From contig ONPU01000019.1 of NCBI GenBank assembly GCA_900319795.1, positions 1-55,544 of the forward strand: a stretch of 55,544 nt of DNA, read 5' to 3'. Below the pieces are notes generated by a model. It worked only from the letters and a program-made list of their open reading frames with translations, had not been told where the DNA came from and searched no databases. The position numbers and the translations under genes are program-made. Positions 2,819 through 43,482 of the stretch are shown here, in pieces. How positions within the stretch are numbered: the stretch's first letter is position 1; each line of letters begins with the position of its first letter. This DNA comes from an uncultured Eubacteriales bacterium. Its GTDB lineage: Bacteria; Bacillota; Clostridia; Lachnospirales; Lachnospiraceae.

Positions 2819-2867
2819 ATCGTTCTCCCGGATTGGTTCATAAAAAGCAGGGCCAAAGGGGGTTCAT

Positions 2868-3566
2868 TTACAGACGGCCTGCCACGGTACTAAGAAGCAG
2901 CGGCAGGATTTTCGCAAGCGGATTCATTTCATAGATCATAAGCAGAAAGGGACTGGCCTTGATCTGGGCCAGCAGCGCGGATCCTTCGGGCGTATTCGAA
3001 AAGAGGGAAATCAGACCGTATCCGATCCAGATGATTCCAAACGCCCAAAGGCCTCCCAAAAGAAGTCCCATAAAACGGTCAATGGAGCGCATGGTCCTTC
3101 CGCTGAATATGCCGCTGATCACCATCGAAAGAAAGCTGAAAATAAGGGATGACGCTATAAATGTGACCAGAGCGGCCGTCAAAGTAATTGCAAATGATAC
3201 AATCTTCGAGGTAATGACATTCCTCATTTCCCCGGTCGCAAGCGCGGAAGCAATTAATGCCACGAGCACCTGCTGGGCATTTGCCGGATTGCCACCCGAG
3301 GAAGTCTCTTCGGCAAGAGCGCCGGACTCGGCGGCATTCATATAGCTGTCTACAACCGCTTCCGTCTTTTCCACATAGAATTCCTTTACGGCTTTGCTTT
3401 CGGACAGATATCTGCTGACAGCCGGAGTCAGGATCATAGAGCAGGCAAGCACTACGATCAGGGAAATCATCGAAAGAAGGGTTTTTGAAAAGCCTCTGTA
3501 AAAGCCCCTGACCATGCCAAGCGCCAAAACAAGCAATGTTATGATTTTAAGGCTGACAAAATCCAT
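2868..3566 (-). CDS. cvpA: CvpA family membrane protein
   Basis: The 232-residue protein has the CvpA (colicin V production) layout. An N-terminal hydrophobic segment with the GFYRGF stretch (about 9-26) is followed by a second segment (about 32-50), an extracytoplasmic region of about 75 residues rich in Glu and Ala, and two further membrane segments, one with GLLLGGLWAFGIIWIGYG. CvpA homologues are inner-membrane proteins linked to envelope integrity; the molecular function is unsettled. It lies 27 bp downstream of the DUF5711-like gene and is probably co-transcribed with it. Confidence 0.75.
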   Translation of the reverse strand: MDFVSLKIITLLVLALGMVRGFYRGFSKTLLSMISLIVVLACSMILTPAVSRYLSESKAVKEFYVEKTEAVVDSYMNAAESGALAEETSSGGNPANAQQVLVALIASALATGEMRNVITSKIVSFAITLTAALVTFIASSLIFSFLSMVISGIFSGRTMRSIDRFMGLLLGGLWAFGIIWIGYGLISLFSNTPEGSALLAQIKASPFLLMIYEMNPLAKILPLLLSTVAGRL

Positions 3567-3593
3567 CCTTTTTCCTCAGCTGATCGTTGAAGC

Positions 3594-25132: not shown

Positions 25133-26602
25133 TTACAGATTCTTCAGAAGTCCTGTCTCTTCATTGAACTCGCGGATCATCTCATCCAGCTGATCGGCGG
25201 CCTTCGCGGCGGCGTCCCATGTATGCTCCTTATCATACCAGAGCGCGTTGAGTTCTTCAGAGGTCTTGCCCTGCTGTTCTACCCATGTGTAGTATTTCAG
25301 GTTGTGGATGCGCTTTCTGTCCGTATAGCGGAGTTCCAGCATGTTGTCGGTCTTTTCTCCGAGAATGGCGGCGTTGAAATCCACGGCGGCTCTTTCTCTG
25401 GTATAAGCGCCCTTTTCGTCGCGGAGCTCTTTGACGCGGGAAGCGTACATCGAAGCCGAGTCCGTCATGACGGTGGCAACCACATCCTTTTCGGTCAGTT
25501 CATAGTATTTGGCTGTCTTAATGGCAGTCAGCATATTGGCGATGCCGGAAATGCCGAAGAGGCTGAGGCTGTTCACTGTCTCTTCCGGAATACCGCAGCT
25601 CTTCAGATACGCATGTCCTTCCTCTTCATTGAAGAGACGCAGTACATTCATGCAGTCCTCATCGTCAATATCGACAACCAGATCCGTATTCTTCACGTTG
25701 TGAATCCACGGAACATGCTTGTCGCCGATTCCCTCGATCCTGTGCGCGCCGAATCCGTTGTCCAGAAGCGTCGGGCACTGGAGAGCTTCACCGACACCGA
25801 TTTTCGCGGTGGGGTAAATGTCCTTGATCCGGTCACCGGATGCCAGCGTCCCCGCGGATCCGGAAGTGAATACGCATGCCGCAAGACGGTCGCCTTCACC
25901 CGCAATCTCCTTGAAAGCTTCGGCAATCGCGTTGCCCGTGACATTGTAATGCCACATATAATTGCCCATCTGCTCGAACTGATTGAAGATCATGGTCTCG
26001 GGAAGTTCCGCCAGTTCATGCGTCTTATCAAAGATTTCCTTTACGTTGGACTCCGAACCGGGCGTCGCGATGATCTCGCTCGCGACTGACTCCAGCCACT
26101 CGAAGCGTTCGCGGCTCATGCCCTGCGGCAGGATCGCGATCGAGTAGCAGCCAAGGAGCCTGGAGTTGAATGCTCCGCCGCGGCAGTAATTGCCTGTGGA
26201 CGGCCACACAGCCTTATGCCAGGAGGAATCGAACTGGCCGGTTACGAGAGGCGGCACAAGGCAGCCGAAAGACGCTCCGACCTTGTGGCAGCCTGTCGGG
26301 AAATATTTTCCGACCATGAGGAGAATCTTTGCCTTGACTCCTGTCAGTTCCGGAGGCAGGACGATATAGTTCGGACTGCCGAAAAGGCCGCCGAATTCTT
26401 TCGGTTCGTTCTTCCAGGTGATTCTGAAGAGGTTGAGGGGATTCTCGTCCCACAGGCCGACGTTCTTCAGCTGTTCCCTGATGGCTTCCGGGATTTCTTC
26501 CGGATGCTGCATTTCCCGGATGGTCGGGATGATGATGTTCTGTTCCTTTGCGCGCGCGATGTTGTGGGCGCGGCCTTCCGCGTTGATCGTCAGATCTATC
26601 AT
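25133..26602 (-). CDS. PLP-dependent beta-family enzyme of unknown substrate
   Basis: The 489-residue protein is a fold-type II (cysteine-synthase/tryptophan-synthase-beta-like) PLP enzyme. The likely Schiff-base Lys is in TGCHKVGASFG and the phosphate-binding loop in PSTGNYCRGGAFNSRLLG. A further Gly/Ser-rich block is TSGSAGTLASGDRI. The start is the ATG at 26602, preceded by AAAGGAG. Its place in the cluster suggests it handles an amino-acid intermediate of purine breakdown, perhaps with the threonine-synthase-like neighbour. A giant hairpin repeat begins 49 bp upstream, and the unusual 681-bp gap separates it from ygfK. Confidence 0.8.
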   Translation of the reverse strand: MIDLTINAEGRAHNIARAKEQNIIIPTIREMQHPEEIPEAIREQLKNVGLWDENPLNLFRITWKNEPKEFGGLFGSPNYIVLPPELTGVKAKILLMVGKYFPTGCHKVGASFGCLVPPLVTGQFDSSWHKAVWPSTGNYCRGGAFNSRLLGCYSIAILPQGMSRERFEWLESVASEIIATPGSESNVKEIFDKTHELAELPETMIFNQFEQMGNYMWHYNVTGNAIAEAFKEIAGEGDRLAACVFTSGSAGTLASGDRIKDIYPTAKIGVGEALQCPTLLDNGFGAHRIEGIGDKHVPWIHNVKNTDLVVDIDDEDCMNVLRLFNEEEGHAYLKSCGIPEETVNSLSLFGISGIANMLTAIKTAKYYELTEKDVVATVMTDSASMYASRVKELRDEKGAYTRERAAVDFNAAILGEKTDNMLELRYTDRKRIHNLKYYTWVEQQGKTSEELNALWYDKEHTWDAAAKAADQLDEMIREFNEETGLLKNL

Positions 26603-26650
26603 AAGTATCACTCCTTTGTTTTATCGTGTGCCACCCAACAGTCTTCACTG

Positions 26651-26846
26651 AGACAATTGCATAAATAATCCAGACGGCTTCCGCGTGAAGTACTTCTAAC
26701 CTCCCCGAAAATTGCTAAAACCGTTCGAAAAAATCACAAACTCGCTTCGCTCAGACAATGATGATTTTTTCGAACAACACAATTTCCGGCGAGCTAAGAA
26801 GTACTAATCACTTGTGCAGATGTCTGTATTATTTATGCAATTGTCT
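26651..26846. repeat. Giant imperfect hairpin repeat, copy 1
   Basis: This 196-bp element folds on itself almost end to end. The outer arms 26651-26675 and 26822-26846 match at 24 of 25 positions. Inner arms include GTTCGAAAAAATCA pairing with TGATTTTTTCGAAC, and AGTACTTCT with AGAAGTACT. The loop is around CGCTTCGC. The interior (from CAGACGGCTTCC to GATGTCTG) is about 95% identical to a second copy at 38247-38448 in the same orientation. It starts 49 bp upstream of the PLP gene. Confidence 0.9.
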
Positions 26847-26864
26847 TCAGCCAGACTTCGGGTT

Positions 26865-27003
26865 AAATATTCCATTAATATAATTACTTCCAAGTACTAC
26901 TGGCCTAACATTACCATCTAAGTATTACGATCTGAGTATTTCTAACCATGTATTGCTGCGTAAGTATTGCTTATTGAGTATTTCATTCTAAGGTTTACTA
27001 CCC
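26865..27003. repeat. 14-bp tandem repeat array
   Basis: Eight consecutive 14-bp units start at 26892, 26906, 26920, 26934, 26948, 26962, 26976 and 26990. Two weaker units lie upstream (26865, and a 13-bp one at 26879). The consensus is RAGTATTNCNNNCT; the best units are AAGTATTACGATCT and GAGTATTTCTAACC. The array is AT-rich and non-coding. A similar unit, AAGTACTTCTAACC, occurs inside the giant hairpin at about 26688. Confidence 0.8.
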
Positions 27004-27008
27004 GAAGT

Positions 27009-27182
27009 CGTCCGCACAGAGTTTTCGGAAATATCTACAGCCGACACAGTTTTCTTAGGCTGACGGCTTTGACGTTGTCCGGCTTTCGAGAAACGACCCC
27101 TTGCCTATTTATTTCTCGAAAGCCGGACGCTGCCTTAGAAACCCTGCGAGGCGCAGCCGTTTCCGAAAACTCTGTGTGGACG
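27009..27182. repeat. Second giant imperfect hairpin, unrelated in sequence
   Basis: Outer arms 27009-27031 and 27160-27182 match at 22 of 23 positions (around ACAGAGTTTTCGG). Inner arms 27077-27093 and 27112-27128 are a perfect 17-bp match (around CCGGCTTTCGAG) with an 18-nt loop. The middle is partly complementary. I see no second copy in the window. Confidence 0.85.
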
Positions 27183-27283
27183 GCGACTGCGTCGCTTATA
27201 ACCTCCAGGCCCCATAACAGCGACTGCGAAGCTAACACGTTTCAAGCTTCAAGGAAATAACTGCGTCGCTATAAACCTTTGCC
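27183..27283. repeat. Three short direct repeats next to the ygfK stop
   Basis: The motif GCGACTGCGTCGCT at 27183, GCGACTGCGAAGCT at 27220 and the weaker ATAACTGCGTCGCT at 27257 recur with a 37-bp period. The first contains the small palindrome GCGAC-TGC-GTCGC. No gene is seen here; function unknown. Confidence 0.5.
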
Positions 27284-30200
27284 TTACAGAAGGTACGGGT
27301 AATCCTCATAGACCGCGAGGATCATCTTCCTCAGCGGCTCATACAGCCCGCACCCCGGATCCGTCACATCGATATCCATCACCTTCCCGCCAAAGCGAAC
27401 CCTCACGAGTTTCGAATCCGCTGTCGGAAGGAACCCCGGATTGTCCGAATCCGCAAAATCCTCATAACTGCCGAAAAGCGTAAACTTGTCTTTGAACGGC
27501 CTGCCGTTCCACGGACAGAATACCGCGCAGTTCCCGCACTCATTGCACATGCCGTCAAGATGCAGAATCTGCGGTTTTTCCATTCCATCCACCCGGATCG
27601 CGACATTGGCCCTGTTCGGACAGACATCCGTGCAGACTTCGCAGATCGTCTCGCAGCCGAGGCAGCGTGTATCGGGCACCGCTTTCGTATCCTTGCAGAG
27701 GATTCCCTTTCTCTTCAGCACTTCGTCTTCGTCGTGCCAGTCGTTGGCCGATTCGTATTTCCCGAAGAGCTTCTCTCTCGCCTCTTCCGCGTCCAGTCCG
27801 TATGCCTCCGCGACGATGGCACAAGCCGCTGCCCCCGCATCCGCAATCGCCTTGACTACGGTCGCCGGTCCTCTCCTGGCATCACCGGCCGCGTAGATAT
27901 GCGGGACGCTTGTCCGCATCTGCTCGTCCGTTACGGGCCTTCCCTTCCGGTCGAGAGCAGCGCCGGCGGCTTCATAGAGCATGCCGTCCACCTGTTCTCC
28001 GACCGCGGAGATCAGAAGATCCGCTTTGACGGAAGTGTATTCGCCGGTCGGACATGGTGAGCGTCTGCCGCTTTCATCCGGTTCGCCGAGTTTCATCACT
28101 TCGCACAGAAGTTCTCCGTCCGCAAGTTTTTCCGGTGCCAGAAGCTCCATGAACTCGACGCCGTCCTCAAGAGCCATCTTCAGTTCTTCCTCATCGGCGG
28201 GCATATAGCGTCTTGTGCGTCTGTATACCAGACGGACATGTTCGGCATTTTTCAGCCTCTTCGCGGCTCTCGCGACATCCATGGCGGTATTGCCGCCGCC
28301 GATCACCACGATTTCATGCGCGTCGCCAAAAGCATCCGGGTCCTTCTTTACCTCCGCGAGGAACTCGAGCGCGTCGACATTTTCCCCTTCTTTCAGAGGA
28401 TTCTGACCTTTAGCCCAGGCGCCTGCGGCAATGATATAATCCGTGAATCCTTCCCCTTCGAGCTCTTTAATGGAACGGATCTCCCTTCCGAACTCGAACT
28501 CGGCGCCGTAAGCGGAACAAAGGGCGACATCTTTTTCGATCGCTTCCTCCGAAATCCGGAATGAAGGGATGACATAGCGCGGGACTCCGCCGGCTTTGTC
28601 ATTTTTCTCAAATACCTTCACGGGAATTCCGGCTTTTGTAAGGAATGAGGCTGCGGTCAGGCCGGCCGGACCTGCTCCGATGATAGCGGCCTTTTTCGGT
28701 ACGGCACAATCAGCGAATCCTCTCTCTCTGCGCCATACGGAAGGATCCTCTGCCTCAATATTTCCGAATACCGTGTCCCCGGCGTTTCTTGCCGCGGCGA
28801 GCTTCATTTCACGGATATGCAGTCCTTCCTCATAGTAATTTCTCATGCAACGGTCCGCGCAGGTATGAGGACAGATGGTTCCGGTAATAAAGGGCAGCGC
28901 GTTCTTTTCCAGAATGATGCGAAGGGCCTCTTCGGACTGTCCTTTTTCCATGGCGCGAAGATAGGCCGGCACATCCTGATGGATCGGACATCCCGCCGCG
29001 CAGGGAGAAGTGAAGCAGTCGAGAACCGGAAGCGCTTCCTCGCGTTTTCTCGAAGGAAGGGGCTTGATCGGTTTTTTATAATACGCCTCTGTCTTCGAAG
29101 AAGCGGCAAGGGCGGCGACTTTCGCCGGATCCACTCCCGAAAAACGCTCCGCCTTCAGATCGTCAAACATGCCCGCGAGCTGGGAAAATCTCTGATATCC
29201 GCCCGGTTTCAGCACCGTGGTCGCCATTGTCACCGGCCAGATGCCCGCGTTCACGATCTCCCGGATATTGAAGAAATCCGCGCCGCCTGAGAAGGAAATC
29301 CGCAGCGCTCCGTCGAATTCCTCCGAAATGCGCCTGCAAAGTTCAATCGTCAGCGGGAAAAGGGAACGTCCCGACATGTACATTTCTTCGCTCGGGAGTT
29401 CTTTTGCCCGGACTTCCACCGGAAATGTATTGGTCAGCTTGACGCCGAATTCAAGTCCCCGCTCGTCGCAAAGCGCCTGAAGTCTCTTAAACATCGGCAC
29501 CGCGTCCTGCCATTGCAGATCTTCGACAAAATGGTGTTCGTCAAATGAGACATAGTCAAATCCGAGATCGTCCAGCGTCTTTCTGGCAAATTCGTATCCG
29601 AGAAGGGTCGGGTTGCATTTGATAAATGTGTTCAGACCCTTTTCCGTAATCAGATAAGTCGCGATTCGTTCGATCTCGTCCGGAGGACATCCGTGAAGAG
29701 TGGACTCCGTGATCGAATCGGAAATGCAGCCCGTTACGGACTCGATAAATGCCCTGTCCACGCGCTCGAACTGACCTTTTTCAAGGGCTGCAAGTGCCGC
29801 TTCGCGGCAGGCTTTGAAAATGGCCGTACCCGACGCGTCCTTCATGCCCTCGATATAGCGGTCGATTTTCTCTGTTTTAATGCCTTCCAGGTCGTAACCG
29901 ACGGACATGTTGAACACAAACTCGTCCGGATCGCCGAGCCCGAATTCCACCGCGATCAGCTTGCATACGAACCAGCCTTTTACATACTCTTCAAAAGCTT
30001 CTTCCACCGTCAGTTCCGTGGACCACTCGCAGTTATAGCACTCATCACCTGCCGTGATGCAGGGCTTCGGGACGCAGGCCGCAAGTTCGCGCCCGTCCAT
30101 TTTCTGCACGGTCTTCAGTTCAAAAAATCTGGCGCCCGCGGCATAGGAAGCGATGATATTCTGGGCGAGCTGGGTATTCGGCCCTGCAGCCGGTCCGAAG

Positions 30201-30355
30201 GGTGTTTCGATCTTCCCGTCAAAAACGGGCAGCGCGGCCTTTCCGGTCAGTTTTACGATTTTGGACACCCCGAAGATACTGCGTTCTTTCCGAAATTCTT
30301 CCAAAACTCTCCCGAGCAGCTTTTCGATCGGGACCGGTCTCATGATATCACCCAT
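27284..30355 (-). CDS. ygfK: YgfK-type Fe-S flavoprotein reductase
   Basis: The product of about 1,023 residues was historically named putative selenate reductase subunit YgfK. Its N-terminal ~410 residues form a dihydroorotate/dihydropyrimidine-dehydrogenase-like barrel (PFGPAAGPNTQLAQN, ELKTVQKMDG). A GltD-like region with Cys-rich Fe-S motifs follows (CFTSPCAAGCPIHQDVPAYL, CPHTCADRC). Next come two Rossmann motifs (IIGAGPAGLTAA, VVIGGGNTAMDVA), and C-terminal Cys clusters (CLGCETICEVCTDVCP, CNECGNCAVFCP). It should pass electrons from NAD(P)H through FAD and Fe-S to reduce a heterocycle in purine breakdown. The chosen ATG at 30355 sits six bases after GGAGGT. It is 32 bp after ssnA. Confidence 0.93.
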   Translation of the reverse strand: MGDIMRPVPIEKLLGRVLEEFRKERSIFGVSKIVKLTGKAALPVFDGKIETPFGPAAGPNTQLAQNIIASYAAGARFFELKTVQKMDGRELAACVPKPCITAGDECYNCEWSTELTVEEAFEEYVKGWFVCKLIAVEFGLGDPDEFVFNMSVGYDLEGIKTEKIDRYIEGMKDASGTAIFKACREAALAALEKGQFERVDRAFIESVTGCISDSITESTLHGCPPDEIERIATYLITEKGLNTFIKCNPTLLGYEFARKTLDDLGFDYVSFDEHHFVEDLQWQDAVPMFKRLQALCDERGLEFGVKLTNTFPVEVRAKELPSEEMYMSGRSLFPLTIELCRRISEEFDGALRISFSGGADFFNIREIVNAGIWPVTMATTVLKPGGYQRFSQLAGMFDDLKAERFSGVDPAKVAALAASSKTEAYYKKPIKPLPSRKREEALPVLDCFTSPCAAGCPIHQDVPAYLRAMEKGQSEEALRIILEKNALPFITGTICPHTCADRCMRNYYEEGLHIREMKLAAARNAGDTVFGNIEAEDPSVWRRERGFADCAVPKKAAIIGAGPAGLTAASFLTKAGIPVKVFEKNDKAGGVPRYVIPSFRISEEAIEKDVALCSAYGAEFEFGREIRSIKELEGEGFTDYIIAAGAWAKGQNPLKEGENVDALEFLAEVKKDPDAFGDAHEIVVIGGGNTAMDVARAAKRLKNAEHVRLVYRRTRRYMPADEEELKMALEDGVEFMELLAPEKLADGELLCEVMKLGEPDESGRRSPCPTGEYTSVKADLLISAVGEQVDGMLYEAAGAALDRKGRPVTDEQMRTSVPHIYAAGDARRGPATVVKAIADAGAAACAIVAEAYGLDAEEAREKLFGKYESANDWHDEDEVLKRKGILCKDTKAVPDTRCLGCETICEVCTDVCPNRANVAIRVDGMEKPQILHLDGMCNECGNCAVFCPWNGRPFKDKFTLFGSYEDFADSDNPGFLPTADSKLVRVRFGGKVMDIDVTDPGCGLYEPLRKMILAVYEDYPYLL

Positions 30356-30387
30356 TCTCATACCTCCTTTTTCAAAGTGTGAGCGGT

Positions 30388-31728
30388 TTAATACTGGCGG
30401 TGATTCAGCTCACCCCAGAGCTTTTTGGACTCTCCCATGATCTGCGCACTGACTGCGTCCTCATCAATTTCCGTAAACTCGCGGTCTTTATATAATACTT
30501 TGCCGTTGATAATCGTCGTCCGGCAGCACCTGCCCATCATGCCGAAGAGCATATGGCCATTGATATTTTCATCGGAAAATGGAGTGAACGGCTTGTAATC
30601 CATGACGATGACATCGGCCGCGGCTCCTTTTTTCAGAACTCCCAGAGGCCGCTTGAAATATTTCGCGGCGATACGCGCATTATTTTCAAACAGCATGGTC
30701 ATGTCTTCCATAAACCCGACGTCCGGATCACAGGCATGGTGTCTTTGAATAATCAGGAATACCTTCAGGGATTCCAGCATATCGTGGGTATACGCGTCAG
30801 TTCCCATACCGACCGTAATGCCCTTCGCCATCATCTGAAGAACCGGCGAGCATCCGACCGCATTTCCCATATTGGATTCCGGATTGTTTACGACCATGGT
30901 GCCCGTCTCCTTGATGATATCCATCTCCGCCGGATTGACATGAATGCAGTGTCCGAGGAGCGTCTTTTCGCCGAGAATCCCGTTATTCAGGAGGCGGTTG
31001 ATCGGGCGCGTCCCGTAATTGCGCAGTGAGTCATAGACATCGTTCATCCCCTCCGCCACATGGATATGGAACCCGGTCATGCCGTTGTTGGCCTCAACCA
31101 TTTTGGCAAATGTTTCATCCGAAATCGTAAACAGCGCATGCCCGCCGAACATCGCTTTGATCATATCGTCGTCTTCGTCGCGGGCCCATTTCGCAAATTC
31201 CGCGTTTTCGCGAATGCTCTCTTCGCACTTCTCCTTCCCGTCACGCTCGGATACTTCATAACAGAGACAGGATCTGATGCCGAGTTCCTTCGCCACATCC
31301 TTGATCGCGAAAAGCGATCCGGGAATTTCACAGAAAGAAGCGTGATGGTCAAAGATGGTCGTCACGCCGTTCCGGATGCATTCGAGGATCGTGGCATACG
31401 CGGATGCTTTCGTGCCTTCAATGGTCAGGTGGCGGTCGATATTCCACCACATTCCATCGAGAATTTCATAGAAATTCGTCGGATGGAACCCGTCTATGGC
31501 GAGTCCTCTCGCAAGGCCCGAATAGATATGGGTATGCGCGTTGATGAGTCCCGGCATAATAATGCCGCCATGAGCGTCTACGTATGAGGCGTCCGGATAG
31601 GTTCTCTTCAGTTCCTCTTCCTCGCCGACGGCAAGGATCTCCTCTCCCACAATGGCTACGGCGCCATTGGCAAGATAGGGCATATCGGGGTCCCTTGTGA
31701 TCAGTTGTCCGTTTCCCAATAGCAGCAT
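30388..31728 (-). CDS. ssnA: SsnA-type amidohydrolase
   Basis: The 446-residue protein belongs to the metal-dependent deaminase/aminohydrolase group. It shows the metal motif PGLINAHTHIYSGLARG, a His block GHCIHVNP and the Asp region VGMGTDAYTHD. SsnA accompanies YgfK, YgeW and YgeY in purine/urate gene clusters, where it probably deaminates or opens a ring intermediate. The start is the ATG at 31728, which has GGAGGAACGCG before it. It begins only 40 bp after mgtE with no visible terminator, so it may be read from the mgtE promoter. Confidence 0.92.
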   Translation of the reverse strand: MLLLGNGQLITRDPDMPYLANGAVAIVGEEILAVGEEEELKRTYPDASYVDAHGGIIMPGLINAHTHIYSGLARGLAIDGFHPTNFYEILDGMWWNIDRHLTIEGTKASAYATILECIRNGVTTIFDHHASFCEIPGSLFAIKDVAKELGIRSCLCYEVSERDGKEKCEESIRENAEFAKWARDEDDDMIKAMFGGHALFTISDETFAKMVEANNGMTGFHIHVAEGMNDVYDSLRNYGTRPINRLLNNGILGEKTLLGHCIHVNPAEMDIIKETGTMVVNNPESNMGNAVGCSPVLQMMAKGITVGMGTDAYTHDMLESLKVFLIIQRHHACDPDVGFMEDMTMLFENNARIAAKYFKRPLGVLKKGAAADVIVMDYKPFTPFSDENINGHMLFGMMGRCCRTTIINGKVLYKDREFTEIDEDAVSAQIMGESKKLWGELNHRQY

Positions 31729-31768
31729 CGCGTTCCTCCTTCTTTTCAAAAACCGGTTTAACAGGAAA

Positions 31769-33280
31769 CTACGCCGTCAAATGAGCAGCGATCTGAGACG
31801 CAAAAACGATCTCCGCGATATGGAAATAAATAATCAGTGAGCATGCGTCGACAATGGTCGTAATAAACGGTGTCGCCATAATCGCCGGGTCCGCGCCGAT
31901 CAGCTGGGCTAAAAGAGGAAGTACCGAGCCGACAAATTTGCTGAGCACGATCGCCGCGAAAAGCGCGATACTGACAACAAGCGCATAGCGGAAGCTGTTG
32001 GGATCCGGAGTTTTCCCGGTCAATGACGGAATCACCTGATACATGATCAGAATCCGGAGCCCGTTTACGACACCCAGAATGGATCCGACGATTGCGGCAA
32101 CCCTGAATTCCTTCCAGATCACGCGAAGGAAGTCCTGAACAGTCACTTCACCAAGGGCAAGTCCGCGAACCATCAGCGTACAGGCCTGGTTTCCGCAGTT
32201 GCCCGGTGTATCCATGAGCATCGGCATAAACGCGACCAGCAGAGGCAGCGCGTTAAATGCTGTTTCATAGCGGGTCGTGACCATACCGGTCAGCGTCGCC
32301 GAAAGCATCAGGATGAGGAGCCAGGGGATCCTCTGCTTCGCGTGCTTCCATACGGAAGTACCGAAATAGCTGGCCGCCTGCTCGTCAGGCAAAATCGCGG
32401 CCATCTTCTGCATATCTTCTGTGGACTCGTCTGTCAGGACGTCGACCGCGTCGTCGATCGTAACGATACCGACCAGCATGCCTTCTTCGTCGACGACAGG
32501 CATGGCCGTAAAGTCGTATTTCGCCAGCTGACGGGCCACAAATTCCTGGTCGTCCGTCACTTTCACGGTGACCACATGGTCATCCATGATCTCTTCAAGA
32601 GGAACCTCCGGTTCGCTTAAGAGCAGATCCCTCGTGGATACCACACCCAGAAGGCGGTTGTGCTCTACAACATATCCGGAGTACACGGTTTCAGCTTCGG
32701 GCCCCTGTTTCCGGATTTCGTTCAGCGCATCCTTCACATCCATTTCCTTGCGAAAACGAATGTATTCAGGCGTCATGATACTGCCCGCGCTGTATTCCGG
32801 ATAGTGGAGCAGCTTATTCAGTGATTCCCGGGTCTTCGCGCTTGACTTCGCGAGAACACGTTTCACGACGCTTGCCGGCATATCCTCCAGCATGTCCGCG
32901 GCGTCATCCAGACCGATTTCTTCGATCGTATTTACGATTTCCGCGTCGGAGAAGCCTTCCACAAGTTCCGCCCTGGCATCATCCGACATGAACGTAAAAG
33001 CGTCCGTCGCGGTATCTTTTCGGAGGAGCCGGAATACGACAAGCCGGTTGTTCTCGTCCAGATCCTCCAGAACCGCCGCCAGGTCCGCAGGGTGCAGGTC
33101 GCTGGTTTCATCGCGAAGCTTCCTGTAGTCCTTCTCGTTCAGATAGTTCAGAATTTCTTCCTTCAGTCTCTTCGTCCTGTCACGGTCTTCAGACTGGTGC
33201 TCATGCTCGTTATCCCCGTCGGGACGTTCAAACTCTTCATTGGTGTCCTTCAAATTCAGCATGTTCTCTTTATCATCCAA
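31769..33280 (-). CDS. mgtE: Magnesium transporter MgtE
   Basis: The 503-residue protein has the MgtE layout. A charged N-terminal domain of helical repeats (about 40-165, with DLHPADLAAVLEDLDENNR) is followed by two CBS domains (about 165-285) that sense Mg2+, then five membrane helices (about 315-500) containing the pore-type GNCGNQ stretch. It carries Mg2+ into the cell. The start is a TTG at 33280, preceded by GGGAGGG at seven bases; the next ATG has no ribosome site. A promoter at 33628-33656 and a leader of about 340 nt with a terminator precede it. Confidence 0.93.
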   Translation of the reverse strand: MDDKENMLNLKDTNEEFERPDGDNEHEHQSEDRDRTKRLKEEILNYLNEKDYRKLRDETSDLHPADLAAVLEDLDENNRLVVFRLLRKDTATDAFTFMSDDARAELVEGFSDAEIVNTIEEIGLDDAADMLEDMPASVVKRVLAKSSAKTRESLNKLLHYPEYSAGSIMTPEYIRFRKEMDVKDALNEIRKQGPEAETVYSGYVVEHNRLLGVVSTRDLLLSEPEVPLEEIMDDHVVTVKVTDDQEFVARQLAKYDFTAMPVVDEEGMLVGIVTIDDAVDVLTDESTEDMQKMAAILPDEQAASYFGTSVWKHAKQRIPWLLILMLSATLTGMVTTRYETAFNALPLLVAFMPMLMDTPGNCGNQACTLMVRGLALGEVTVQDFLRVIWKEFRVAAIVGSILGVVNGLRILIMYQVIPSLTGKTPDPNSFRYALVVSIALFAAIVLSKFVGSVLPLLAQLIGADPAIMATPFITTIVDACSLIIYFHIAEIVFASQIAAHLTA

Positions 33281-33621
33281 AGGTATTCCCTCCCCTTAAA
33301 CAACCGAATCCGTAAGCAATGTCTTACATGAATCAGCGCGTAAAAAAATACAGCTTCAGCAACAAATGATGCATCCGCTGTATTGAAACCCGTCTGATCC
33401 GGTTAAAACCGGGGAATACGGAAACTGCCTTGTCTTAAGAGTGTACCGGAAACAGCTTCAGCTGAAATCGCTGAGGATCAGTTCTTAAAAGCAGGCAGGT
33501 ATACAGCGGATGAACGGTTCGTCGTATATGGTCATCCATAGCTGTATCTCACCTCTCTCTCACGCTTCAGTAAGCTATGTCCGGCAAAGGTCTCTCATAT
33601 GAAAATCTTCGCCTGCATACA
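33281..33621 (-). promoter_or_regulatory. Structured leader of mgtE (candidate Mg2+ riboswitch)
   Basis: From the predicted start near 33621 the leader holds three main parts. Hairpin one is ATACAGC (33547-33541) with GCTGTAT (33507-33501), enclosing GGATGA with TCATCC. Hairpin two is CTGCCTGCTTTTAAGA (33498-33483) with TCTTAAGACAAGGCAG (33440-33425), largely paired. The third is a terminator using AATACAGC and GCTGTATT again. The repeated ATACAGC/GCTGTAT arms allow mutually exclusive pairings. The 5' GAGGTGAG and 3' GCTGAAGCT recall the M-box, but the match is only partial. Confidence 0.55.
33342..33384 (-). terminator. Attenuator-like terminator in the mgtE leader
   Basis: On the minus strand AATACAGC (33384-33377) pairs with GCTGTATT (33354-33347). 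The T-rich run at 33348-33342 closes the stem and follows it. It lies about 60 bp before the mgtE start, inside its leader, so it would control read-through into mgtE. Confidence 0.65.
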
Positions 33622-33627
33622 TTATTA

Positions 33628-33656
33628 ATTATAAGCGGATGCATGCTTAAGGTCAA
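33628..33656 (-). promoter_or_regulatory. Sigma-A promoter of mgtE
   Basis: On the minus strand TTGACC (33656-33651) and TATAAT (33633-33628) are 17 bp apart, an almost consensus promoter. The start is near 33621, giving a leader of about 340 nt. Confidence 0.8.
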
Positions 33657-33699
33657 GAATTCCCCCCGTAATGGAGCAGTTACTTTTGGCTGATTCAGC

Positions 33700-33728
33700 T
33701 GGACAGTTTCAGACAAATGATTTATATT
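33700..33728 (+). promoter_or_regulatory. Promoter of the PTS-like permease gene
   Basis: TGGACA (33700-33705) and TATATT (33723-33728) are 17 bp apart. It lies back to back with the mgtE promoter and about 50 bp before the permease start. Confidence 0.6.
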
Positions 33729-33776
33729 ATTCGCGATGCTTTTTCCAATAAAACAGCACACGGAAGGAACATTTAT

Positions 33777-34868
33777 ATGGAAGCGTTCAAATCATTTTTA
33801 AAAAGAAAAGATATTGAAATTTCCCTGAAGAGATACGGGATTGACGCGCTTGGAGCCATGGCTCAGGGTCTCTTCTGTTCCCTGCTTATCGGGACCATCA
33901 TCAACACGATCGGAACACAGTTCCACATCGCGACATTGACGAATCCCGTGGCAACCATAGCCGGTACGGAATACACGGTCGGCGGTCTGGCATCCGCCAT
34001 GAGCGGTCCCGCGATGGCCGTAGCGATCGGATATGCCCTGAAATGCCCGCCGCTCGTCCTGTTTTCCCTGATTACAGTCGGCTTCGCGTCAAATGCTCTG
34101 GGCGGTGCCGGAGGACCTCTGGCAGTTCTCTTTGTGGCCATCCTTTCCGCTGAAATCGGAAAAGCGGTGTCCAAGGAGACCAAAGTTGATATCCTTGTTA
34201 CACCGCTTGTTACAATCGGAGCCGGAGTGTTCCTCTCCGCGTTAATCGCACCCGCCTTGGGAGCAGCTGCCATGAAATTGGGCGCCCTCATCATGTGGGC
34301 TACGGAACTGCAGCCGTTCCTGATGGGCATCCTCGTCTCCGTCACTGTCGGAATCGCGCTCACGCTGCCGATCTCCTCAGCCGCGATCTGCGCTGCTTTA
34401 GGACTGACCGGTCTGGCCGGCGGCGCGGCCGTAGCGGGCTGCTGTGCCCAGATGGTCGGCTTTGCCGTGATGTCCTTCCCGGAAAACAAATGGGGAGGCC
34501 TCATTTCCCAGGGCATCGGAACTTCCATGCTTCAGATGGGAAATATCGTGAAAAACCCCAGAATCTGGATCGGCCCGACTCTGGCATCCGCGATCACCGG
34601 CCCGCTGGCGACCTGCGTCTTCCGTCTCCAGATGAACGGAGCGGCCGTTTCCTCGGGAATGGGTACCTGCGGCCTGGTCGGTCAGATCGGCGTCTATACC
34701 GGATGGGTCAACGATGTAGCCGCCGGAACCAAAGCCGGAATCACCGCGTTTGACTGGATCGGACTCATCCTCATTTCCTTCGTTCTCCCGGCCATACTCG
34801 CCACTGCCATCAACATGTTCTTAAAGAAAATCGGCTGGGTGAAGGACGGCGATCTGAAGCTCAGCTAA
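33777..34868 (+). CDS. PTS EIIC-type membrane permease (PF13303-like)
   Basis: The 363-residue polytopic membrane protein has about eight to ten hydrophobic segments and several Gly/Ala-rich stretches (GPAMAVAIGYALKCPPLV, GLTGLAGGAAVAGCCAQ). The N-terminal LKRYGIDALGAMAQGLF fits the stand-alone EIIC family without fused EIIA or EIIB domains. No other PTS gene is nearby, so transport by phosphotransfer is uncertain. The ATG at 33777 follows GGAAGGAAC; an upstream in-frame ATG at 33717 lies in the promoter region and is rejected. Confidence 0.75.
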   Translation: MEAFKSFLKRKDIEISLKRYGIDALGAMAQGLFCSLLIGTIINTIGTQFHIATLTNPVATIAGTEYTVGGLASAMSGPAMAVAIGYALKCPPLVLFSLITVGFASNALGGAGGPLAVLFVAILSAEIGKAVSKETKVDILVTPLVTIGAGVFLSALIAPALGAAAMKLGALIMWATELQPFLMGILVSVTVGIALTLPISSAAICAALGLTGLAGGAAVAGCCAQMVGFAVMSFPENKWGGLISQGIGTSMLQMGNIVKNPRIWIGPTLASAITGPLATCVFRLQMNGAAVSSGMGTCGLVGQIGVYTGWVNDVAAGTKAGITAFDWIGLILISFVLPAILATAINMFLKKIGWVKDGDLKLS

Positions 34869-34876
34869 GACCGTTT

Positions 34877-35080
34877 TTATCCGCGCATGACCAGCATCAC
34901 CGCTGTAGCGCTGACAATCAGAATACCGAGAAAAGCAAGTATCCATCTGCCAACCGTGCGGGTGGATACTTTTGGATTGGAGCTGATCAGGGTATAGACG
35001 AGCACCACTTCGGACACACAGATTCCGACTATGCCGACGATCACCCCCAGCATAAAAACAGTAAAGAAAAACTGCTGCAT
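34877..35080 (-). CDS. Small two-helix membrane protein, 67 residues
   Basis: Two hydrophobic segments (about 5-30 and 45-64) flank a short polar loop (SSNPKVSTRTVGR). AGGAGGA ten bases before the ATG supports translation. I recognise no family. It ends 8 bp from the convergent permease gene and starts 18 bp after the Nudix-Maf gene, so it is probably the last gene of that transcript. Confidence 0.6.
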   Translation of the reverse strand: MQQFFFTVFMLGVIVGIVGICVSEVVLVYTLISSNPKVSTRTVGRWILAFLGILIVSATAVMLVMRG

Positions 35081-35098
35081 CTTTCTCTTTCTTCCTCC

Positions 35099-36133
35099 TT
35101 ACAGAAAATCGCGCAGCTCATGCCACACGCGGCCGACCGGAAGCCCTACGACATTGCTGTAATCTCCGGAAATGCCCTTGATAAATGCCGCGAAGCTGCC
35201 CTGAATCCCATAAGCTCCCGCTTTGTCCATCGGTTCGTCACTTTCGGTGTACAGAAGAATCTCCTCCTCCGTCATCGGATACACGGTGACTTCCGTTCTT
35301 ACGGCAAATGACTTCTTCACCCTGTCCTCCGGACCCCCGCACCGGATCAGCGTCACTCCGCTTAAAACCTCATGCGTCCTGCCCTGAAGGCGGCGGATCA
35401 TCTCCGCGGCCTCTTCATGCGTGTGCGGCTTCCCGAGAATCTCTCCGTCCACTACCACAATCGTATCGGCTCCCAAGACGACTTCACCGTTGGAAAAGGC
35501 ATAGGTCTCAGCCACATCCTCCGCCTTCATGGCAGAGAGATTCTTCACCAGTTCCTCCGGCCCCTCCCCGTGACGCTTCTCTTCCTTTTCGGAAGGAAGA
35601 ACAACAGGCATAAGGCCGATCTGAGTAAGGAGCTCATAGCGCCGCGGCGACTGTGAAGCCAGGATCAGTTTGGGAAGCTGCTCGGCTCCGACAAGACGAT
35701 CCTCCGCGTCATACCGCAGTTCCAGATGGAAAAAAGGCTCGTCCGAGAGCAGGTAATTGAGAAATACCTTGTCCCCCTCCCAAAGAGGAAGATCAAAGAT
35801 CTGCTCCTTCGGGATCCAGCGCAGTTCGCCTTCGGAGCATTCCGTGAGTTCGCCCTCGAACTTAGGGCAGGTATAGACATACATATGCTCGTCTTCCCAG
35901 CGTTCGCTCCTGAATTCCACCACGCCCCGCAGCTTTGGATGATGCAGAGTAAGGCCGGTCTCCTCGTAAGCCTCCCGCTTCATACATGCAGCCGGCGTCT
36001 CTCCCGCCTCGACATGGCCTCCGATGCCAATCCACTTTCCCTCGTTCAGGTCATTTTTCTTTTTATTGCGGAGCAGCATCAGATAGGCTCCGTCCCGCTC
36101 TATATGTCCCAGAGTCGTGCTGACCATAGACAT
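35099..36133 (-). CDS. Nudix hydrolase fused to Maf nucleotide pyrophosphatase
   Basis: Two house-cleaning domains lie in one 344-residue chain. Residues 1-140 are a Nudix hydrolase of the 8-oxo-dGTPase type, with the Nudix box GGHVEAGETPAACMKREAYE and EETGL after it. Residues about 152-344 are a Maf domain beginning KLILASQSPRRYELL, with the conserved GADTIVVVDGEILGKP and QGSFAAFIKGISGDYSNVVG blocks. Both remove damaged or modified nucleotides. The frame is continuous across the joint, so this looks like a true fusion. AAGGAACACT precedes the ATG. A terminator lies just upstream. Confidence 0.92.
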   Translation of the reverse strand: MSMVSTTLGHIERDGAYLMLLRNKKKNDLNEGKWIGIGGHVEAGETPAACMKREAYEETGLTLHHPKLRGVVEFRSERWEDEHMYVYTCPKFEGELTECSEGELRWIPKEQIFDLPLWEGDKVFLNYLLSDEPFFHLELRYDAEDRLVGAEQLPKLILASQSPRRYELLTQIGLMPVVLPSEKEEKRHGEGPEELVKNLSAMKAEDVAETYAFSNGEVVLGADTIVVVDGEILGKPHTHEEAAEMIRRLQGRTHEVLSGVTLIRCGGPEDRVKKSFAVRTEVTVYPMTEEEILLYTESDEPMDKAGAYGIQGSFAAFIKGISGDYSNVVGLPVGRVWHELRDFL

Positions 36134-36162
36134 AGTGTTCCTTTCTGTTTTATTTTCGGTCG

Positions 36163-36207
36163 AAAAAACAGCCGAACGCAGTTATCGGTGAAAGCTGCGC
36201 CGGCTGT
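36163..36207 (-). terminator. Intrinsic terminator after the SH3/GNAT pair
   Basis: On the minus strand ACAGCCG (36208-36202 region) pairs with CGGCTGT (36174-36168), with an inner GCAG/CTGC pairing. A T-run (36168-36163) follows. It ends transcription of the GNAT gene before the Nudix-Maf gene. Confidence 0.75.
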
Positions 36208-36216
36208 CTCATAAAT

Positions 36217-36474
36217 TCAGATGATATGCCGTTCTTTCAGGTATTTTGACGCAAACGGACACTCGGCTTCAATCTGTCCGTGCTGTGCGCGGATGGATTC
36301 CACGGCCATTTCCACAAGCTGTCCCGGTACTTCAGAGCCTATATATTCGTCGGCCACATACGTGCTTTGAATATTGAATACTCCCTGTTCTTTTTCCGGG
36401 AAGCGGATCTCGGCCAGAATTCTCCCGTGTTCATTCTTGCTGTAAATACTGTGCGGCAGTTTAATGAACTCCAT
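36217..36474 (-). CDS. Small GNAT-like N-acetyltransferase (YjdJ type)
   Basis: The 85-residue protein fits the short Gcn5-related family. Its beta-strand block ILAEIRFPEKEQGVFNIQSTYVADEY leads to the acetyl-CoA loop region (GSEVPGQLVEMAVESIRAQ), and the C-terminal CPFASKYLKER is typical of this group. Members are single-domain and of unknown substrate. Its ATG overlaps the stop of the SH3 gene (TAATG), so the two are translationally coupled. A terminator follows. Confidence 0.75.
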   Translation of the reverse strand: MEFIKLPHSIYSKNEHGRILAEIRFPEKEQGVFNIQSTYVADEYIGSEVPGQLVEMAVESIRAQHGQIEAECPFASKYLKERHII

Positions 36475-37577
36475 TAGCGGAAATATCCTGACTTCATATA
36501 GCCGGTTACGCCCTTGTACTTGACCTTGTACCAGCCGCTGTTGTAGGCAGCTACAATCGTCACTTCCGTATTCTTCGGGACCACCGTGATCGGATCGGAG
36601 GAAAGGCTTCTGTCCTCACGAAGGTTGACATTTGCGGTCGTAATGCCGGTTGACTGACTGGAAGCACTGTCGGACTTGAAGTTGCCGGCTTTGATATAGC
36701 CAGTGGTTCCGTCGGATGCTCTGACATAGAGCCAGCTTGAATTGTACTCGCTGAGAATGGTGACCTTCTCGCCTTCATCCAGCGTACGGATCTTTGTCGA
36801 AGATGTAACCTTCGGCTGTGAACGAAGGTTGACGGCTGTGCTCAGGGTTTCCTTGGTGTAGGACGTAGATTCGGATTCGTTCGATCCTTCACCGACAGTC
36901 ACATAATTGCTCTTGATGTAACCCTTGACGCCTTTGTACTTGATGTGGAACCATGTGCCGGATTCAGAGAGGATCTGAACTTTCGCGTCGTCCGGAAGCA
37001 CCGTGATGACGTTGTTGGCGATCTTCTTCTTTGAGCGCATGTTCACTTTGGCGGTCGTAACCTTGTAAACAGCCCCGTTCTCCTTGTCGGATACGAAAAG
37101 TCCGGCCTGGATATAACCGGTCTTGCTGCCGTACTTGACCTTGTACCAGTTGTTGTTGTACTTCTTCTGTACGGTCACTTTCTTGTTCTTCTTGATCGTG
37201 GTGACCTTGTTGGAAGTAGACACTTTCGCGCTTGAACGAAGAACAACCTGAACGGCAGTCGTCTGTTTGGTGCCGGAAGTGTCAGAGCTGGAGCCGCTGG
37301 ACTTCTTCAGATACTTCGCGGAAACCCAACCGTAAACGCCTTTATACTTGGTACGGAACCAGGTGCTGGCATTGTTGCGGTTATAGAGTGTCAGAGTAGT
37401 GTTCTTCGGAATCGTTACGATTCGATCGTAGGTAGTTCCGGGACCTTCTCTTAAGTTCAGATTCGCTGTCGTGACCCTCTTTATGGTTGTGGCCGCTGAT
37501 ACGCTTACGGTGGAAATCATCACCATTGCTGCCACAGCAAGCATTAATAATACTTTTCTCACATTCTTCTTGTTCAT
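36474..37577 (-). CDS. Secreted protein with five bacterial SH3 domains
   Basis: The 367-residue protein has a signal peptide (about 1-28, ending VSA). It is built of five SH3b repeats that share the pattern NLRE/NMRS...TVVPKNTEVTI...W-KVKYKGV-GY-KS (for example at about 35-92, 105-165, 170-228, 240-300 and 310-367). SH3b domains bind peptidoglycan, so it is likely a wall-associated binding protein. No catalytic domain is attached. It has its own promoter at 37669-37696 and a hairpin in the 5' leader, and overlaps the GNAT gene by the TAATG. Confidence 0.85.
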   Translation of the reverse strand: MNKKNVRKVLLMLAVAAMVMISTVSVSAATTIKRVTTANLNLREGPGTTYDRIVTIPKNTTLTLYNRNNASTWFRTKYKGVYGWVSAKYLKKSSGSSSDTSGTKQTTAVQVVLRSSAKVSTSNKVTTIKKNKKVTVQKKYNNNWYKVKYGSKTGYIQAGLFVSDKENGAVYKVTTAKVNMRSKKKIANNVITVLPDDAKVQILSESGTWFHIKYKGVKGYIKSNYVTVGEGSNESESTSYTKETLSTAVNLRSQPKVTSSTKIRTLDEGEKVTILSEYNSSWLYVRASDGTTGYIKAGNFKSDSASSQSTGITTANVNLREDRSLSSDPITVVPKNTEVTIVAAYNSGWYKVKYKGVTGYMKSGYFR

Positions 37578-37612
37578 ATTGCCCCCTATGCCTGTACTAG
37601 TAAACCATCTCA

Positions 37613-37643
37613 GACTGTATGTGCAGGCACTATGTATACAGTC
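37613..37643 (-). repeat. Hairpin in the 5' leader of the SH3 gene
   Basis: GACTGTAT (37613-37620) and ATACAGTC (37636-37643) are 8-bp perfect arms with a 15-nt loop, placed between the promoter and the start codon of the SH3 gene. No T-run follows. Confidence 0.6.
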
Positions 37644-37668
37644 TTAAAACATACCGATACAATTCATA

Positions 37669-37696
37669 ATTATATCACAGTTTTGTCACATTTCAA
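37669..37696 (-). promoter_or_regulatory. Promoter of the SH3-GNAT operon
   Basis: On the minus strand TTGAAA (37696-37691) and TATAAT (37674-37669) are 16 bp apart. Between them lies TGTGAC-N5-TGTGAT, a direct repeat. The -35 lies 3 bp from the greA stop. Confidence 0.7.
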
Positions 37697-37698
37697 GG

Positions 37699-38199
37699 TC
37701 AGAAGGCCCGAATCGTATCATTTTCCTCACTATCCGCTTCGGAGACACTCAGAATCTCAACTTCATAGCTTCCGCCCCCGGCTTTTACCTCCACTTTGTC
37801 GCCCGCTTTATGGTGTAGAAGGGCTTTCCCAAGCGGAGAATCAATGGAAATCAGGCCTTTCAGTGAGTTGCCCCTGATGGATGTCACGATCCGATAGGTT
37901 TCTTTCTCGTCGTCCTCGGGAATATATACTTCCACGGTCGTATTGAGCGCGACTTCGCCCTCTTTGGCGTTATCCGTCACAATCGTGGCAAACTTGAGCA
38001 TCCTCTCGAGATAGCCGATCCGGCTTTCGTTCTGGTTCTTCTCCCTTTTCGCCGCGTAATATTCGAAGTTCTCCGACAGGTCGCCCTGGGCCCTGGCCTC
38101 TTTTACGGCCTCGATCAGCTTCGGCCTAAGGACGAGCTTCCGCTCTTCGATCTCCCGCTCGATCTTCTCCACGTCTCCCTTTGTCAGTCTCTCTCCCAT
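37699..38199 (-). CDS. greA: Transcription elongation factor GreA
   Basis: The 166-residue protein has the two GreA domains. An N-terminal coiled coil carries the tip acidic residues (ARAQGDLSENFEYYAAKREK). The C-terminal FKBP-like domain follows (VEVYIPEDDEKETYRIV, SIDSPLGKALLHHKAGDKVEVKAGGG). It rescues backtracked RNA polymerase by stimulating transcript cleavage. GGAAGG precedes the ATG. A giant hairpin repeat begins 48 bp upstream of the start codon. Confidence 0.96.
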   Translation of the reverse strand: MGERLTKGDVEKIEREIEERKLVLRPKLIEAVKEARAQGDLSENFEYYAAKREKNQNESRIGYLERMLKFATIVTDNAKEGEVALNTTVEVYIPEDDEKETYRIVTSIRGNSLKGLISIDSPLGKALLHHKAGDKVEVKAGGGSYEVEILSVSEADSEENDTIRAF

Positions 38200-38246
38200 G
38201 TATATACCTTCCTGTTTACGTAAATGTTATAGTCTCGAATACGCCG

Positions 38247-38448
38247 CTGAGATCATTGGATCAACACTTCAGACGGCTTCCGCGCGAAGAACTTCTAACC
38301 TCCCCGAAAATTGCTAAAACCGTTCGAAAAAATCCCAAACTCGCTGCGCTCAGACAGTGTGATTTTTTCGAACAACACAATTTCCGGCGAGCTAAGAAGT
38401 ACTAATCACTTGTGCAGATGTCTGAACTGTTGATCCAATGATCTTCAG
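38247..38448. repeat. Giant imperfect hairpin repeat, copy 2
   Basis: This second copy of the element at 26651-26846 has the same orientation and about 95% identity in the interior. The outer arms (38247-38274 and 38420-38448) differ in sequence from copy 1 (here GATCATTGGATCAACA, there GACAATTGCATAAATAAT) but are again complementary to each other, with one mismatch and one indel. It lies between tcdA (stop 38474) and greA (start 38199), 48 bp before greA. Confidence 0.9.
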
Positions 38449-42722: not shown

Positions 42723-42740
42723 TTCTTTGCACCTACCATT

Positions 42741-42806
42741 GATAAGACAGTGGGGACAGTCCCTGGTGTCTTATAAGACACCAGGGACTGTCCCCACTGT
42801 CTTATC
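42741..42806. repeat. 66-bp perfect palindrome between modB and modC
   Basis: Two 33-bp arms meet with no spacer at 42773/42774. The core includes GGGGACAGTCCC and GGTGTCTTATAAGACACC. It covers most of the 82-bp modB-modC gap and its end overlaps the modB stop codon by two bases. No T-run follows. Confidence 0.95.
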
Positions 42807-43482
42807 ACCTTCCGGATGTACCCAGGTTCATGATCACTACTATGACAAAAGCGATGACAATAATCACTGCCGTCCAGAAACCCGCAGTCGCATAGTCCCC
42901 GTTCTGGATCACCATCGCGATTTTCTGGGCGATCGTCCCGGTCTTTCCGGGAATATTGCCGGCCAGCATCGACGTCGCGCCGTATTCACCGAGAGCACGC
43001 GCGAAAGTCAGCACCGTCCCGGATACGATTCCCGGCTTCGCGGCAGGCATCAGAACCCGCCGGAAGATTTCCCATTCGGACATTCCGAGCGTCCGGGCTG
43101 CGTGGATCAGGTTCTCGTCCACCTGCTCGAACGCCGCCCGCGCGTTCCGGTACATGAGCGGAAACGCGATGACGGATGCCGCGATGACGCACCCGAGCCA
43201 GGTCTGAACCGCTTTGATTCCGAAATGTGTGTACAGCGCATTCCCGAAAGGCCTCTTCAGGCTGAAAATAAGAAGCAGGAAAAAGCCCGCAACAGTAGGC
43301 GGAAGCACCAGCGGCATCGTCAGAAGTCCGTCAAGCAGAGCCTTTGTTTTCGGCCCCGCCCTGTAGATCCGCGACGCGGCAAAAATGCCCAGGAAAAAGC
43401 AGATGACCGTCGCCGCTATTCCGGTTTTTAAGGAAATAAAAAGCGGACTGAAGTCCGCCTTTTCCAAAAACTCCATCATCAT
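42805..43482 (-). CDS. modB: Molybdate ABC transporter, permease
   Basis: The 225-residue protein has five to six membrane segments. The cytoplasmic EAA-type loop (AARTLGMSEWEIFRRVLMPAAKPGI) contacts ModC. It opens with MPLVLPPTVAGFFLL, typical of ModB/CysT-like permeases. It is 27 bp after modA. Its stop codon touches the palindrome. Confidence 0.92.
   Translation of the reverse strand: MMMEFLEKADFSPLFISLKTGIAATVICFFLGIFAASRIYRAGPKTKALLDGLLTMPLVLPPTVAGFFLLLIFSLKRPFGNALYTHFGIKAVQTWLGCVIAASVIAFPLMYRNARAAFEQVDENLIHAARTLGMSEWEIFRRVLMPAAKPGIVSGTVLTFARALGEYGATSMLAGNIPGKTGTIAQKIAMVIQNGDYATAGFWTAVIIVIAFVIVVIMNLGTSGR

Follow-up and report, generated by a model that had tools for sequence, protein, structure and literature searches.

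Two copies of a hairpin repeat lie in the window analyzed here, which is the whole 55,544-nucleotide stretch of contig ONPU01000019.1 (positions 1 to 55,544 of the forward strand; NCBI GenBank assembly GCA_900319795.1) from an uncultured Eubacteriales bacterium of the Lachnospiraceae. The repeat is best explained, with a probability of roughly 0.7, as a gene-less mobile element of ~200–250 bp whose propagation requires, or is aided by, the hairpin of one of its two strands and which persists by keeping that fold. Such an element would insert into intergenic spaces and duplicate ~10 bp of the target (range 9–15, in one sister lineage), its propagation would need or profit from the hairpin of just one strand (in the window, that of the minus strand), and lineages that retain the folded strand with its conserved internal and apical loops would persist, so that the arms could drift in sequence without ceasing to pair. 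RNA is the likeliest nature of the folded molecule, the alternative being a single DNA strand, which would tolerate G-T pairs too. Dispersed bacterial repeats are usually taken as DNA palindromes moved by transposases. The combination of target duplications and strand-specific covariation in one family would imply either that a folded strand, of RNA or of single-stranded DNA, participates in the spread of the repeat, or that a mobile element has an RNA function in many of its copies.

The shared fold and the strand probably under selection

The window copies (26651–26846 and 38250–38444) each measure ~196 nt from arm end to arm end and, on inspection of the sequence, have the same orientation. 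A preliminary description of the window had reported a shared interior framed by arms that differ between the copies yet remain self-complementary, and this is borne out by the alignment: the interiors are identical in 142 of 148 aligned columns (96%), the left arms agree at only 17 of 24 positions, and within each copy the arms pair over 25 nt with 96% complementarity. The region of copy 1 (26630–26870) has folding energies of -90.6 kcal/mol (plus strand, z -11.1) and -114.1 kcal/mol (minus strand, z -13.4), values that none of 200 shuffles equaled on either strand, and copy 2 reaches -92.0 and -112.2, respectively. The minus-strand fold is the better and also the conserved one in the window copies. 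Their parts, together with the matches to R1, a covariance model built from 37 copies, are as follows:

26651–26675, minus strand: outer arm of copy 1 (3′ arm of the minus-strand fold), 25 nt, 96% complementary to 26822–26846
26676–26685, minus strand: conserved internal-loop side of copy 1, GGCTTCCGCG on the plus strand, near-invariant in 37 aligned copies
26689–26714, minus strand: one side of the inner stem of copy 1, 85% complementary to 26780–26805, with covarying helices
26723–26735, minus strand: one side of the apical stem of copy 1, GTTCGAAAAAATC on the plus strand, pairing with 26763–26775 in the folds of both strands
26736–26762, minus strand: apical loop region of copy 1, with the conserved CTGAGCGAAGCGAG on the minus strand, from the alignment of copies
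26763–26775, minus strand: other side of the apical stem, pairing with 26723–26735 in the folds of both strands
26780–26805, minus strand: other side of the inner stem, from its complementarity to 26689–26714
26812–26821, minus strand: conserved internal-loop side of copy 1, TTGTGCAGAT on the plus and ATCTGCACAA on the minus strand, near-invariant in 37 aligned copies
26822–26846, minus strand: outer arm of copy 1 (5′ arm of the minus-strand fold), from its complementarity to 26651–26675
26670–26828, minus strand: R1 match of copy 1, 148 bits (29 on the plus strand); this copy was in the model
38250–38274, minus strand: outer arm of copy 2, 25 nt, 96% complementary to 38420–38444
38420–38444, minus strand: outer arm of copy 2, from its complementarity to 38250–38274
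38269–38426, minus strand: R1 match of copy 2, 151.4 bits (28 on the plus strand); this copy was in the model

Among the aligned copies the stems vary in sequence but stay paired. Read on the minus strand, an asymmetric internal loop places ATCTGCACAAGCC opposite GGCGCGGAAGCC in most of the 37 copies, a short conserved helix joins ACTTCT to AGAAGT, and the apical loop is CTGAGCGAAGCGAG or a near variant of it. Covariation was assessed in 36 distinct sequences: 94.6% of the cells were paired versus 81.2% after shuffling, the covariation score was 0.372 versus 0.151, and double changes occurred in 24 of 43 pairs (shuffle mean 17.7). Further pair types were less telling (52 versus 48.0, with 24 of 500 shuffles as high). 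When partners were slid by one to three columns, pairing was at most 51.2%, a control that is biased in favor of the structure because the structure was derived from the same alignment. In UBA2860, the outer arms are highly divergent between copies and matched inside each copy. An origin of these arms from host sequence was considered and rejected, as they still look related by eye and descent is likelier.

To decide which strand is selected, 94 of 104 candidate copies were retained; the ten discarded were mostly false pairings, besides one cut at a contig end (L092) and two real copies whose arm ends differ (L065 and L016). The minus-type strand folds lower in 89 of the 94. Inherited, fixed G-U pairs add to this bias, and therefore changes between close relatives were counted instead, with 73 full copies giving 27 disjoint nearest-neighbor pairs of 82–99.2% identity (19 copies remained unpaired). 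Pairing was defined by folds in which G-U was forbidden, so that both strands were treated alike. The 27 pairs contain 79 compensatory double changes, besides 97 changes that lead to G-U, 42 that lead to A-C, and 124 others (p = 3.5e-6), the directions being those of the window's minus strand. The excess holds for either starting pair: GC to GU was seen 45 times against 16 for GC to AC, and AU to GU 47 times against 23 for AU to AC. Since C/T and A/G changes at unpaired sites are nearly equal (25 and 29), mutation bias does not explain the G-U excess. The ratio of G-U to A-C is 95:38 when the complement is folded, 89:37 at positions where both folds agree, and 32:2 in the nine pairs that are at least 90% identical (65:40 in the remaining pairs).

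The excess of G-U over A-C thus indicates selection on a folded single strand. The preliminary description had left the choice between selection for the folded molecule and a copying mechanism that rebuilds symmetry; selection on the fold of one strand is favored, and arm copying alone accounts neither for this excess nor for the conserved unpaired motifs, although it may contribute. The close-pair count of G-U against A-C is simple, can be transferred to other structured repeats, and separates selection on a folded strand from the copying of arms.

A dispersed and mobile family

The window genome (G000) is a 2.0-Mb assembly of 23 contigs that is 82% complete. Instead of the two copies first described, BLAST with copy 1 against this genome gave 35 matches that represent 23 places in both orientations (grouped by hand, with two pieces at 111.5–111.9 kb of contig C8 taken as one), and R1 gave 27 matches. 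Truncated copies, or copies without one half, are also present in this genome, and an 18-base pattern of the arm, when up to 3 mismatches were allowed, was matched 51 times (reversed control: 0). Of the 42 genomes in the genus, 12 have R1 matches at E ≤ 0.001, namely G035 (62), G000 (27), G023 (16), G033 (15), G063 (14), G005 (11), G012 (9), G026 (4), G017 (2), and G025, G031, and G024 (one each), and the other 30 have none. An order-level sample yielded matches in 18 of 295 genomes, the window genome included, and in 13 of 130 genera; both genome searches applied strict filters and scored only top candidates, and their weakest matches are doubtful. A conserved DNA pattern matched at least 112 stretches, and among the 80 matches listed most are Lachnospiraceae or Clostridia assemblies (including RUG006, UBA2860, RUG13128, and RGIG5770), the several unrelated organisms among them probably being chance matches. 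The carriers found are Lachnospirales and other named gut assemblies, and the search of the genome and its relatives that had been proposed at the outset reveals a dispersed family. A plasmid search returned no homologue, and viral sequences returned one matching viral contig. In Rfam, no known family reached the gathering score for the element (only the signal recognition particle RNA elsewhere in the window did), and a further Rfam search gave three chance-level matches with E up to 5.

Variants of the basic form were observed as well. Copies L018, L020, L022, L024, and L029 of the window genome carry an extra inner hairpin segment, AAATCCTTTCAGGATTT...CCCCGATCnnAGATCGGGG, in whole or in part. 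Closely spaced inverted pairs that resemble dimers of repetitive extragenic palindromic sequences (REPs) occur at L212 in genome G231 (4687/4902, 12561/12763, and 17058/17313) and at L251 (12688/12928).

Evidence for movement comes from a sister lineage with CAGGCNNTTGCGAAA tips, of which 78 distinct stretches have both tips. Direct repeats of at least 8 bp at the ends (up to 3 nt off) were found in 32 of the 78, where 0.065 was expected from mismatched left and right flanks. Twenty-three of these repeats adjoin both tips exactly and measure 9–15 bp (11 of them 10 bp), and the direct repeats are varied in sequence with an A+T content of 73%. In full copies the inverted tips AGGCNNTTGCGAAA stand ~250 bp apart, and the tip pattern has 217 matches in G035 and none in the reversed control. 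The target duplications imply a DNA insertion step. Compensated changes already distinguish copies whose duplications are intact, so selection is probably exerted along the line of source copies, i.e., in propagation.

Four alignments of occupied and empty sites were made, of which one was readable (L033/L125): by eye, G033 reads through at a clean empty site, where in G035 the element is bracketed by a repeated 6-bp sequence. No arms are present at the empty site, and they are thus part of the element. Pre-existing target palindromes, which were named at the outset as a possible source of the arm complementarity, were rejected in view of this armless site (the sole clean one) and by the arms common to copies with target duplications. 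Copies whose arms do not pair, the other counterevidence that had been anticipated, do exist, but those inspected are halves or internally deleted derivatives. At another site G033 has retained the outer hairpin and lacks the interior seen in G035 (by eye), and a common breakpoint and an N gap among the internal deletions of G035 suggest that some of these are assembly faults. Two tips of G035 that are separated by 2.6 kb enclose ordinary host genes. For the greA copy, the window's upstream gene was unmatched in the loci of 29 relatives, and the site is thus not syntenic.

The window element is therefore a non-autonomous, MITE-like mobile element (MITE, miniature inverted-repeat transposable element), and we infer that the window lineage moves as the sister lineage does. 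Among the natures first suggested (a MITE-like element, a structured RNA, or a hairpin-mobilized repeat), a MITE-like one is favored, with target duplications in the sister lineage and a fold that is probably selected on one strand.

Points against the proposal and rival explanations

Several observations weigh against a mobile element selected through one folded strand. In pooled group alignments with a strand-neutral structure the asymmetry is weaker (42:22, p = 0.017), with another selection it is 29:17 (p = 0.10), and with singletons 23:16 (p = 0.34). A crude half-versus-half count gave 71:71 in 37 more distant copies, i.e., 37 of 39 copies in ten groups, of which G063, G026, and G012 lie within the genus. 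In 31 of these 37 it is the model strand that folds lower; the strand signal is strong for recent changes inside the genus and unproven beyond it. Clear target duplications occur only in the TTGCGAAA-tip lineage, and in the window's CAAAAG-tip lineage a 7-bp repeat was found in one of 12 copies, which are either older or have true ends that were not recognized. Furthermore, searches for Y1, DDE_Tnp_1, DDE_Tnp_1_6, and RVT_1, made in incomplete assemblies, linked neither a transposase nor a reverse transcriptase to the element.

An ordinary MITE, in which a DDE transposase acts on double-stranded ends, template switching during replication keeps the palindrome, and the folded strand has no role, is unlikely. 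The inverted ends and the target duplications of ~10 bp would be expected of it, one copy occupies a shared place in G017 and G025 in opposite orientations, and template switching, documented elsewhere, can homogenize arms and flip spacers (PMC8794818; PMC8604942). It leaves the one-strand excess of G-U over A-C unexplained, and none of the 37 aligned copies has its asymmetric loops corrected to perfect pairing. Adjoining double changes, although enriched over a full shuffle (9 versus 3.3, with 4 of 500 as high), are not significantly so when only changed sites are shuffled (9 versus 6.2, with 62 of 500 as high). No matching insertion sequence (IS) was found at the DDE_Tnp_1 and DDE_Tnp_1_6 loci searched. 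Template switching may nonetheless add to the symmetry of the arms.

Another rival is a structured RNA that serves the host at each site (as a 5′ leader, an intergenic mRNA hairpin, or a processing or stability element) and has spread incidentally. Only tens of bases separate many copies from a gene start, including both window copies, for which the preliminary description had given 48–49 bp to a minus-strand start codon. We measured 48 nt for copy 1, taking as the start the ATG at 26602 and not the GTG at 26611 given in the open reading frame list; for copy 2 the distance from 38250 is 50 nt. The genes that follow are that of a pyridoxal phosphate-dependent enzyme and greA, respectively. However, a home-made gene caller placed 85 of 94 copies between two genes, and among these the minus-type strand is sense to both neighbors in 26, antisense to both in 36, divergent in 15, and convergent in 8. 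This lack of sense preference disfavors selection within the host mRNA at each site and points to the element's own cycle. The copy shared by G017 and G025 (L031/L032) speaks on both sides: only 6 of 240 positions differ when the two are co-oriented, whereas the matched flanks are 88.9% and 84.7% identical, but the element is inverted within the same intergenic space. It was either flipped in place and conserved, or related copies were inserted independently nearby; in the close-pair test it contributes three G-U changes, one double change, and one unpaired change. Members of the bcr repeats are often part of mRNAs (PMC3446304). With 30 of 42 genus genomes lacking a match at E 0.001, a host function at each site is rather improbable.

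Y1/HUH enzymes require single-strand folds, and target duplications are not known to result from their chemistry. A REP-like element, in which such an enzyme acts on a folded single DNA strand, is very improbable, for although 13 of 14 carrier genomes tested have Y1 transposase matches, some copies form inverted pairs, and some in other genera end in CGTC-like bases by eye (compare PMC3733652), the sister lineage has target duplications, the RAYT of the window genome (contig C18) is flanked by a different palindrome, R1 is absent from 19 Y1 loci searched (14 and five more), and the G063 assembly, which is 82% complete, contains 14 copies without any Y1 match. The palindrome that flanks this RAYT also occurs in the window as a perfect repeat of 34+34 nt at 42740–42807 (also L242), with GACAGTGGGGACAGTCCC. 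At L219 (~1340–3580, G310), an IS605-type tnpA-tnpB unit is inserted in a copy, the hairpin of which is split. RAYT and IS605 were therefore both rejected as partners.

Other enzyme families were searched as well. PF01609 (DDE_Tnp_1) was not found in G000 and G005, and no plausible end pair was seen in 21 loci; PF13751 (DDE_Tnp_1_6) was not found in G000, and none was seen in 14 loci. An autonomous relative with the same ends was thus absent from these 21 and 14 loci, in incomplete assemblies and with other transposase families outside the search. An IS1182-like element (DUF772, DDE_Tnp_1_6) with inverted ends GATGTCGGGGTCAAAAG, whose CAAAAG part recalls the window-lineage tips, was observed at L320 (1247–3100, G033), and L335 is the same element. 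The GTCAAAAGC contained in its ends amounts to no more than a loose resemblance, and it was rejected as a partner. Of 15 carriers, 11 have RVT_1 reverse transcriptases (G000, G005, G063, and G012 have none), as do 7 of 14 non-carriers, which is not decisive for a correlate of carriage, and R1 was absent from the 30 RVT_1 loci returned.

A second giant hairpin (27009–27182), with 23-nt arms that are 96% complementary, CACAGAGTTTTCGGAAA, shares the intergenic space of copy 1. It has no R1 match, and no further copy was found in the sequences searched.

Comparison with known repeats

A literature search by sequence motif and descriptive terms, with most subscription papers outside its coverage, showed among the papers listed none whose entry describes the family. 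The closest repeats among those described are bcr1–bcr18 and tagged REPs. The former, from the Bacillus cereus group, are intergenic, non-autonomous, partly MITE-like repeats with conserved secondary structure that are sometimes found in mRNAs (PMC3446304; PMC2267715). The window family resembles them in being intergenic, non-autonomous, structured, and in part MITE-like, but it has another sequence and another host group. The bcr1 duplication is the 5-nt TTTAT, whereas those of the sister lineage are varied and 9–15 bp long, which sets the family apart from bcr1. REPs measure 20–40 bp, and CGTC-tagged REPs without a known transposase have been reported (PMC3733652). The family likewise consists of dispersed palindromes that sometimes form inverted pairs, but its members are 200–250 bp long, have inner loops, show target duplications in one lineage, and were not found to flank a RAYT at the genome's own RAYT or at the 19 Y1 loci.

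With the MITEs of DDE-type IS elements the family shares its short, non-coding nature, its terminal inverted repeats, and target duplications, found in 32 of 78 copies of the sister lineage and in one of 12 (7 bp) of the window lineage. It differs from them by its strand-specific, covarying fold with conserved loops, and no parent element was found at the loci searched. Finally, a bacterial counterpart of the eukaryotic short interspersed elements (SINEs), i.e., a non-autonomous element that multiplies via its own folded RNA, is reverse-copied by a borrowed enzyme, and leaves target duplications of variable length, is a tentative and rather doubtful idea. It would account for the target duplications and the selection on a single-strand fold together, and the family would share with SINEs a non-autonomous structured RNA and variable-length target duplications; it differs by its inverted ends, and an RNA intermediate, a 3′ tail, and a partner reverse transcriptase would be hypothetical here. 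The family is best placed as a structured MITE-like repeat, for which spread by way of RNA is a conceivable and testable mode.

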